DNA from: Gammaproteobacteria bacterium
GTDB taxonomy: Bacteria > Pseudomonadota > Gammaproteobacteria > JAABTG01
Assembly: GCA_034522055.1 (NCBI GenBank)
Contig: JAXHLS010000002.1
Span: 434,001-498,000 of the forward strand
Direction: 5' to 3'
DNA length: 64,000 nt
Below, piece by piece: positions 24,354 through 59,973 of this stretch (position 1 is the first letter of the stretch; every line of letters begins with the position of its first letter). The notes beneath the pieces were generated by a model. That model was not told the DNA's origin. It ran no database searches and saw nothing but the letters and a program-made list of their open reading frames with translations. Position numbers and translations under genes: made by a program.

Positions 24354-24370
24354 CGCACCATTATGGTGCG
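24354..24370. promoter_or_regulatory. NtrC-type binding site
   Basis: CGCACCATTATGGTGCG is a perfect palindrome matching the NtrC consensus (TGCACCA-N3-TGGTGCA but for the outermost base). It lies about 90 bp upstream of the sigma-54 promoter of the porin-glnK-amtB unit, a normal enhancer distance. Confidence 0.83.
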
Positions 24371-24456
24371 TTGGGCTTAAGGCAACTGTTATCAAAAAGC
24401 AACAATGGAGCGATGATACCCGTATAACAACTTGATTATACGCCTATTTATCTAAC

Positions 24457-24472
24457 TGGCACGGCAACTGCA
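24457..24472 (+). promoter_or_regulatory. Sigma-54 promoter of the TorF-glnK-amtB unit
   Basis: TGGCACGGCAACTGCA has the invariant GG (-24) and GC (-12) at correct spacing. The expected transcript start is near 24484, about 60 nt before the first ATG. Confidence 0.85.
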
Positions 24473-57214: not shown

Positions 57215-57490
57215 CTAATCCTCGCCGGAGGGGGCGCCCGCCCGTTGGCCGCCCCCCAGGTGCAGGGCCACGCGCAGCAGCAACAGCAGCGGGAACGCGC
57301 CATGCAGACACAGATCGAAGATATCGATGGGGCGCACCAGCTCACCCTGAACCAGCATTCTCAGTTTCTCCAGCAGATGGGGCTCGGGAAAGAAAGGCGC
57401 AAGCCCCAGGGTCAGGCTTCCGAGGATGAGCAGGGGCCAGGGTATGCGTTGCACCCAGGACAAGGGACCTGTGACGCCGGGAATATTCAT
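57215..57490 (-). CDS. Small two-helix membrane protein
   Basis: 91 residues with two membrane helices (about 13-32 and 60-78) around a conserved-looking EPHLLEKLRMLVQGELVRPIDIFDLCLH stretch. Small proteins with this sequence pattern are common in gammaproteobacteria and sometimes labelled RND transporter, without evidence. The stop lies 4 bp before the amidotransferase start, so the two are coupled. Confidence 0.7.
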   Translation of the reverse strand: MNIPGVTGPLSWVQRIPWPLLILGSLTLGLAPFFPEPHLLEKLRMLVQGELVRPIDIFDLCLHGAFPLLLLLRVALHLGGGQRAGAPSGED

Positions 57491-57618: not shown

Positions 57619-58578
57619 ATGAATCAACGCCCCCAACTCTATCCTTCCATCACGCCCTTCGAGTCCGGTTTCCTGCGGGTATCGCCGCGCCACACCATCT
57701 ACTACGAACAGTCGGGCAATCCCGCCGGTAAGCCCGTGGTATTCCTGCACGGCGGTCCGGGGGGAGGCTCCAACCCCCGCATGCGCCAGTTCTTCAATCC
57801 GGAGGTCTACCGCATCGTCCTCATGGACCAGCGTGGCTGCGGCCAGAGCCTGCCCCACGCCTGCGTGGAGGACAACACCACGTGGCAGCTCATCGCGGAT
57901 CTGGAGGCGCTGCGCCGCCACCTCGACATCGATGCCTGGCAGCTGTTCGGCGGCTCCTGGGGTTCCACCCTGGCCCTGGCCTATGCCGAACGGCATCCCC
58001 AGCGGGTTACCGAACTGGTGTTGCGGGGGATCTTTCTCCTGCGCCAGAAGGAGTTGCACTGGTTCTACCAGGATGGGGCCGGCCGGCTGTTCCCCGACGC
58101 CTGGCAACGCTTCCTGGCGCCCATCCCCGCGGCGGAGCACCACGATCTGCTGCACGCCTACCACCGCCGGCTTCACGGCGACGACCGCCGGGTACAGCTC
58201 GAGGCCGCACGAGCGTGGAGTCAATGGGAGGCCGCCACCAGCGAACTGGTGCCCTGTGGCGAACTCATCGAGGCCTTCGGTTCACCCGCCTTCGCCCTCG
58301 CCTTCGCCCGCATCGAGAGCCACTACTTCGTCCATCGCGGCTTTTTCGATGACGAGAATCGCCTGCTCGCCGGCGTCGAGCACATCCGGCACCTCCCCGC
58401 CACCATCATCCATGGGCGCTATGACGTCATCTGCCCGTTGGAAACCGCATGGGAGCTACACCAGGCCTGGCCGGAAGCGAGATTCGTCGTGGTGCCGGAG
58501 GCCGGCCACTCCGCCTTCGAAACCGGTATCGCCCAACAGCTCGTCGCCGCCACGGATCACTATGGCGGCGTCGCCTGA
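57619..58578 (+). CDS. pip: Proline iminopeptidase
   Basis: 319 residues, alpha/beta-hydrolase (family S33). HGGPGGGSNP at 44-53 forms the oxyanion hole and GGSWGSTLALAY (Ser113) the nucleophile elbow; QRGCGQS and the late AGHS complete the pattern. Releases N-terminal proline from peptides in the cytoplasm. Single gene. The strong plus-strand terminator lies 400 bp downstream, after the candidate small RNA. Confidence 0.92.
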   Translation: MNQRPQLYPSITPFESGFLRVSPRHTIYYEQSGNPAGKPVVFLHGGPGGGSNPRMRQFFNPEVYRIVLMDQRGCGQSLPHACVEDNTTWQLIADLEALRRHLDIDAWQLFGGSWGSTLALAYAERHPQRVTELVLRGIFLLRQKELHWFYQDGAGRLFPDAWQRFLAPIPAAEHHDLLHAYHRRLHGDDRRVQLEAARAWSQWEAATSELVPCGELIEAFGSPAFALAFARIESHYFVHRGFFDDENRLLAGVEHIRHLPATIIHGRYDVICPLETAWELHQAWPEARFVVVPEAGHSAFETGIAQQLVAATDHYGGVA

Positions 58579-58884
58579 GGGGCAGCGCCGTTTGTCGTCG
58601 AAGCGCCGCACAAAGCCCCCTGGCGCACTCGGCGGTTGTCTCCTTTGTCGGAATAATTGCCATCTGTCGGGCCGGCGTGTCCCGCCGCGCCGGCGCCGCC
58701 GACATCCCCTCGATCCAGGGTACCCAGGCCGTCAAATCAACCGCTTACATCGCATACACCGCGGTCCGTGATGCCGTCAGGCACCGCGACGGCTGGCGTG
58801 TCGTGTTGTCGGAATTCTTTACATAGATTCAGCCGAACTCCATGCCTTTAGAAAAACTTACTTATTTATCAGCGAGTTAAAATA
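58579..58884. other. Intergenic region after pip, no gene recognised
   Basis: About 300 bp without a convincing reading frame. The last 60 bp are AT-rich, as expected just upstream of the sigma-54-type promoter at 58885. Confidence 0.5.
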
Positions 58885-58900
58885 TGGCACGCTGAATGCT
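58885..58900 (+). promoter_or_regulatory. Candidate sigma-54 promoter of a small RNA
   Basis: TGGCACGCTGAATGCT has GG (-24) and GC (-12) at correct spacing, in an AT-rich stretch with no reading frame after it. The expected transcript start is near 58911. Confidence 0.6.
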
Positions 58901-58910
58901 TGGAAATGCT

Positions 58911-58997
58911 CAGGGCGCTCCCGTAGGGTGGCCCTTGTAACTTCTCAATCCTCGCTTTTTGAGAGCACCCGGTCCCGCGAGGGCCCGGGTTTTTTTT
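58911..58997 (+). ncRNA. Candidate small RNA (about 87 nt)
   Basis: Between the sigma-54-type promoter and a strong terminator the sequence folds into three hairpins: AGGGC/GCCCT (58912-58935) with an inner CCC/GGG, TCTCAA/TTGAGA (58943-58964), and the terminator stem (58967-58990). There is no reading frame or ribosome site. Size and layout are those of a trans-acting sRNA. It lies between pip and the convergent lgt gene. No known family is recognised. Confidence 0.55.
58967..58997 (+). terminator. Rho-independent terminator of the candidate small RNA
   Basis: ACCCGG-T-CCC / GGG-C-CCGGGT stem, nine pairs with one mismatch, GCGA tetraloop, then eight T. It points along the plus strand and so cannot serve lgt. 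Confidence 0.92.
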
Positions 58998-59023: not shown

Positions 59024-59827
59024 TCAGCAGCCGGCGGCAGAGGGCCGGTGACGGTAGGCGAGCCACATCAACACGGCACCCGCCACTACCATGGGCAGGG
59101 ACAGGGCCTGCCCCATGGTGAGCCAACCGAAGGCGAGATAACCGATGTGGGCATCGGGCACGCGCACCACTTCCACCAGCGCCCGAAAGCCCCCGTAGCC
59201 CAACAGGAACAGGCCGGAAACCGCCATCGTGGGCCGCGGGCGGGCGGAATAGAGCCACAGGATGACGAACAGCACCACGCCCTCCAGCAGCGCCTCGTAG
59301 AGCTGGGAAGGGTGACGTGCCACATCGCCCCAGCGCCCGTTCCCCACCACCATGCCCCAGGGCAGCTCCGTCGGACCGCCCCACAGTTCGCCGTTGATGA
59401 AGTTACCGATGCGCCCCGCGAACAGCCCCGGGGGCACCAGGGGAGCGATGAAATCGGTGACCATGAAGAAGGAGCGTCCGGTCCGCCGCGCGAACAGCCC
59501 CATGGCCACCAACACCCCGAGGAAGCCCCCATGGAAGGACATGCCCCCCTGCCACACCCGCACCAGGCTCAGGGGGTCGTCGAGAAAATGGGACAAATCA
59601 TAGAACACCACGTAGCCGAGCCGTCCCCCCACCACCACCCCCACCGCCAGGTAGAACAACAGGTCCCCGATCTCCGCCGGCCGCCAGCCCGATCCGGGCC
59701 GCGCGGCGCGCCAGCGGCCGAGCCACCAGCCGGCGAGGAAGCCGGCGAGATACATGAGGCCATACCAGTGAATGGCCACCGGCCCCAACTGCAGGGCCAC
59801 CGGGTCGATGTGGGGGTAATGGAGCAT
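59024..59827 (-). CDS. lgt: Prolipoprotein diacylglyceryl transferase
   Basis: 267 residues from the ATG at 59827. Seven membrane helices. The Lgt signature [21 protein letters not shown], the HGGFLG loop with the essential His, and [13 protein letters not shown] identify it. Attaches diacylglycerol to the lipobox cysteine of prolipoproteins at the inner membrane. Single gene, convergent with the candidate sRNA. Confidence 0.96.
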
Positions 59828-59973
59828 GGGGCGGTAGTGTAACCGCTGGCGACGCCCGGTTGGGCGCGATATCCGGGCACCCATTGCAGCCGCTACCCGA
59901 ACGCCCACCACCCACGGGGCCTCGCTGGCTATACTGAAGGTTGGCCCTCCACCCACCAGACCAGGCCCAGAAT

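Follow-up and report, generated by a model that had tools for sequence, protein, structure and literature searches.

A probable small RNA gene of the XrtA/PEP-CTERM regulon behind a PrsR-type sigma-54 promoter in a gammaproteobacterium

Promoter and predicted RNA between pip and lgt

The window analysed here is a 64,000-nt stretch of a gammaproteobacterial genome. Within it, pip (57619–58578, plus strand) and the convergent lgt (59024–59842, minus strand) bracket a unit consisting of a promoter and a predicted RNA, with all elements on the plus strand. The enhancer, TGTCGGAATTCTTTACA (58807–58823), is a predicted PrsR binding site, corresponds to the motif 1 described by Haft and co-workers in 2006 and is identical in a congener, genome G001 (17 of 17 bases). 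A putative second copy, TGTCGGAATAATTGCCA (58646–58662), is degenerate and weak, with three mismatches, and is absent from the congener. In the interval between enhancer and promoter, TATCAGCGAGTTA (58867–58879) matches the IHF consensus WATCARN4TTR perfectly; the congener carries this site in the same place with one mismatch. The −24/−12 sigma-54 promoter, TGGCACGCTGAATGC (58885–58899), keeps 14 of its 15 core bases in the congener and starts 61 nt past the enhancer, within the 32–92 nt that separate the two elements in PrsR-type promoters, and has the −24(GG)/−12(GC) box of that type. A preliminary description of the window had proposed a promoter of the form TGGCACG-N4-ATGCT, which we confirmed at 58885–58901. 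It had also called this promoter an orphan, a label that does not fit a box preceded at canonical spacing by a PrsR (PEP-CTERM) enhancer.

Sigma-54-like sites at one mismatch occur eight times in the whole window against 5.6 expected, so the box alone is not beyond chance and the case must rest on its context. The locus stands above chance because of the enhancer, the IHF site and conservation in the congener, none of which had been noticed in the preliminary description. A point against PrsR/sigma-54 control is the −12 element, which reads ATGC here and not TTGC. No sigma-70 promoter-like site was found for the RNA.

The predicted small RNA (58911–58997) is about 87 nt long and contains no ORF; its start would lie near 58911, as counted 12 nt downstream of the −12 GC. 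Hairpin 1 (58912–58935) is followed by a segment made up of the invariant linker UGUAAC and hairpin 2 (58936–58965 together, 58942–58965 for the hairpin alone). The loop of hairpin 2, UCCUCGCUUU, exposes UCCUCGC, which is complementary to the Shine-Dalgarno core. At the end lies a strong intrinsic terminator (58967–58997) with a hairpin at 58967–58990 and a U8 tail, and its forward T-run makes it directional on the plus strand. The 87-nt RNA folds at a predicted −35.8 kcal/mol (z = −2.3), and the congener's copy has a z of −4.8. Fold and frame analysis agreed with the initial proposal of a transcript of this length with two stem-loops, a strong terminator and no reading frame. The features of a sigma-54-dependent small RNA, namely a promoter with an activator site, an ORF-less transcript and an intrinsic terminator, are all present in the sequence, as is a hallmark of Hfq-dependent sRNAs, an intrinsic terminator with a long U tail. 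A CsrA sponge is unlikely, since GGA motifs are absent from the RNA.

A 304-aa ORF crossing the RNA was rejected as a gene, being a shadow of lgt. No PEP-CTERM gene was found behind the promoter, as no ORF precedes the terminator and lgt is convergent; we therefore filed the unit in the promoter class and not as a PEP-CTERM gene. No Rfam family matched the RNA at the gathering threshold. Membership of RF02278 (Betaproteobacteria toxic small RNA) was rejected, as the RNA scored 22.4 bits where the gathering score is 50, the likeness being one of resemblance only: a hairpin exposing UCCUC beside a G+C-rich terminator.

A DNA search of 95 genomes gave matches only in the window genome and the congener, where synteny is kept and the unit lies between the same two genes. 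Linker, hairpin 2 and terminator are ~90% identical between the two species, against 40–57% in the intergenic flanks (40% before the enhancer, 57% in the spacer and 50% in the tail). The sequence of hairpin 1 has diverged, but its fold persists. Conservation of hairpins and promoter in relatives, suggested at the outset as a check, is thus found in the congener. For a covariance model, proposed likewise, the matches outside the genus were bare terminators without enhancer or promoter. Scanning 84,980 species for the core pattern returned the congener only, plus chance matches. Among the genomes sampled the RNA is limited to one genus, and covariation is thin because only two genomes carry it.

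The PrsR promoter class and the exosortase system

We searched the genome with the pattern TGTCGGAATTNTTTACA, allowing up to two mismatches and using the reversed pattern as a control. This search yielded 25 sites against one in the control, and the site at 58807–58823 is one of three perfect copies. Several of the 25 lie 60–150 bp before −24/−12 boxes, and several precede proteins with a PEP-CTERM ending. According to Haft et al. 2006 (PMC1569441), motif 1 is 17 nt long, ends in TTTACA and is followed by a spacer of 62.8 ± 10.6 nt and a sigma-54 motif 2; the arrangement precedes proteobacterial PEP-CTERM genes, with PrsR as the inferred activator.

A survey of 369 genomes of the class, using a pattern of enhancer, 46–76 nt and sigma-54 box, detected this arrangement in 45 genomes; the reversed control matched once. 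The 61-nt spacer at the RNA compares with 64.9 ± 7.0 nt across the 83 distinct sites of the survey. About half of these sites head PEP-CTERM ORFs (a simple tail test flagged 46 of 83, at least two of them falsely). PrsR exceeded its family cut-off in 106 of the 369 genomes, comprising 40 of the 45 with the pattern but only 66 of the 324 others (Fisher P = 1.6e-19). The absence of the strict pattern from these 66 PrsR-bearing genomes is a point against PrsR control of the RNA. So are five genomes (G002, G200, G209, G275 and G333) that have the pattern without a PrsR match (E ≤ 1e-150); their assemblies may be incomplete, the sites may be due to chance, or a different activator may be at work.

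The window genome itself encodes PrsR (738 bits; cut-off 503), PrsK (772 bits; cut-off 300) and exosortase A (XrtA; 352 bits; cut-off 208). One cluster holds EpsB and the associated proteins (export, chain-length and kinase), with the whole system above curated cut-offs, and 11 PEP-CTERM tails were counted. No enhancer was found upstream of epsB in this genome. Experimental data exist for other organisms: DVUA0057 of Desulfovibrio vulgaris, a response regulator predicted for PEP-CTERM genes, was found to bind the five PEP-CTERM targets predicted for it (PMC3333781), and the PEP-CTERM gene pepA of Aquincola requires RpoN (PMC9850573).

Perfect IHF consensus sites were enriched in the 83 spacers, with 7 in the forward and 11 in the reverse orientation against 0.47 expected for each, and all reverse sites lie 18–20 bp before the −24 box. 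This enrichment suggests that PrsR promoters are IHF-assisted, as many sigma-54 promoters are. In the accessible portions of the literature on PrsR promoters, we found no statement of IHF assistance.

Proposed function and alternative explanations

Taken together, the promoter and transcript features indicate that the locus very probably encodes a short non-coding RNA that is switched on together with exosortase (PEP-CTERM) surface-matrix genes. We assign a probability of roughly 0.8 to the more specific reading of a gene for a small regulatory RNA within the XrtA/PEP-CTERM regulon, controlled by PrsR and sigma-54 and acting in trans by base pairing. In the mechanism we propose, the kinase PrsK would activate PrsR, which would bind the enhancer at 58807–58823. 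With the DNA bent by IHF at 58867–58879, PrsR would open RNA polymerase–sigma-54 at 58885–58899, and an RNA of ~87 nt would be transcribed, ending at the terminator (58967–58997). This RNA most likely pairs in trans via the invariant UGUAAC linker and the UCCUCGC loop. Such pairing could cover Shine-Dalgarno sequences, and the translation of selected mRNAs would be trimmed during export of exopolysaccharide and PEP-CTERM proteins. For target prediction, another of the checks suggested initially, a duplex-energy scan of 147 start regions showed no enrichment and no preferred target, and did not separate exosortase/EPS genes from the background.

Because roughly one in two promoters of this type precedes a single PEP-CTERM gene and the RNA is restricted to one genus, the unit could be a relic of a PEP-CTERM gene, whose PrsR promoter and terminator outlived the ORF and now yield a functionless short RNA. 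We consider this unlikely: hairpin 2 and the terminator are far better conserved than the flanks, the fold of hairpin 1 was kept through sequence change, and a second RNA family (see below) is conserved in six genomes. The position of the unit would also suit a cis-antisense RNA against the 3' end of the convergent lgt mRNA, since lgt ends 27 bp past the RNA, the search for a minus-strand terminator in the gap found none and the congener keeps the synteny. The conserved part is nevertheless the RNA, while the lgt-proximal spacer is only 50% identical, which renders this explanation quite improbable. Least probable of all is an mRNA for a very small peptide. The window copy does contain short GTG or TTG frames, but no reading frame is conserved between the two copies: the two species differ by a single base in the T-run, which breaks the frame in the congener, and the congener's RNA has no ATG. 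Both observations argue against coding.

The preliminary description had read the locus as a sigma-54-driven small RNA, possibly under nitrogen control. Conservation and the regulon setting support the first part; nitrogen control is not supported, for want of an NtrC site. An NtrC-controlled sRNA resembling NrsZ would agree with the sigma-54 box and with the presence of an NtrC-type unit at 24.4 kb in the same window, yet we regard it as very improbable. The stretch from 57264 to the promoter, covering ~1.6 kb ahead of the RNA, holds no NtrC-type palindrome at up to three mismatches; the closest match lies further upstream at 57248 (three mismatches). The conserved upstream site is instead the PEP-CTERM enhancer, and the RNA, as noted, has no Rfam match.

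At 24354–24471 of the window, an NtrC-like palindrome and a sigma-54 box lie ahead of a porin-like gene, glnK and amtB. The palindrome (24354, two mismatches) precedes the box at 24457 by ~90 bp. Since the three-mismatch scan was at chance level overall (56 vs 53 matches), the match is suggestive only. Judged from its sequence and gene content, the porin-glnK-amtB unit is likely to be nitrogen-controlled, and the two sigma-54 units of the window most likely answer to different activators.

The locus shares with the PEP-CTERM-box/PrsR regulon, as described in PMC1569441, the 17-nt motif 1, a ~62-nt spacer, the sigma-54 motif 2, PrsR/PrsK and an intergenic position, and differs in that its promoter would drive a ~87-nt non-coding RNA rather than a PEP-CTERM gene. 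That paper places a few sites before other genes and does not mention an RNA, and the openly accessible literature yielded no previous description of an sRNA controlled by a PrsR/PEP-CTERM promoter. Several sRNAs governed by sigma-54 and two-component systems are listed in PMC7602753: Qrr (LuxO), GlmY/GlmZ (GlrR), CrcZ (CbrB) and NrsZ (NtrC). Like the window RNA, these combine an enhancer-binding response regulator and sigma-54 with a stand-alone short RNA and an intrinsic terminator. The window RNA differs in its activator, in its exosortase/exopolysaccharide physiology and in lacking Rfam similarity at the gathering threshold. A further parallel is Dv_sRNA2, directly targeted by the response regulator DVU0679; regulator and motif are different, and the consulted part of that study (PMC3333781) did not link DVUA0057 to an sRNA. 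The window RNA would be a new RNA in a known regulon, while the sigma-54 sRNA class is already known in other settings.

The signal and the non-PEP-CTERM outputs of PrsK/PrsR are little known, despite the presence of PrsR in more than a hundred of the genomes surveyed. An sRNA in the regulon would give PrsK/PrsR a post-transcriptional output as well as a clean single-promoter reporter, and would hint at how exopolysaccharide export and surface-protein sorting stay balanced. It suggests that a widespread, little-understood exosortase surface programme also acts through regulatory RNAs.

Other candidate RNAs behind PrsR-type promoters

The survey revealed five further PrsR-type promoters with a terminator and without a PEP-CTERM ORF, in the congener, G315, G124, G337 and G361. 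The G315 element defines a family, termed family B, that is conserved in six of the eight genomes of genus g189 (loci L165–L170 in G315, G372, G374, G373, G215 and G371; L165:215–432). It comprises a predicted RNA of ~115 nt, unrelated to the window RNA, with a near-invariant core and compensatory changes in the terminator. Its enhancers, diverged by up to five bases, and its sigma-54 boxes align. Family B precedes epsB, with prsR further downstream on the contig in G315, and may instead be a leader or attenuator of epsB. A family B model run on the window genome and the class returned matches in its own genus only. The elements in G124 (L102:1501–1700), G337 (L152:574–830) and G361 (L154:527–820) are candidate small RNAs of single genomes; those in G124 and G337 had no match in relatives (one genome in the case of G124). 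Neither family B nor the other candidates matched Rfam.

That family B stands behind a promoter of the same type lends support to a recruitment of small RNAs by exosortase regulons. Whether exosortase/PEP-CTERM regulons recurrently hold dedicated PrsR–sigma-54 small RNAs of independent origin in different lineages, with the window RNA, family B and the three single-genome candidates as examples, we judge to be evenly balanced. If so, matrix assembly would have a post-transcriptional arm made up of such RNAs, comparable to the Qrr RNAs in quorum sensing. As a separate observation, runs of 7–8 G occur shortly past the PrsR-type promoter in L151, L152 and L094, in sequences that are otherwise unrelated.
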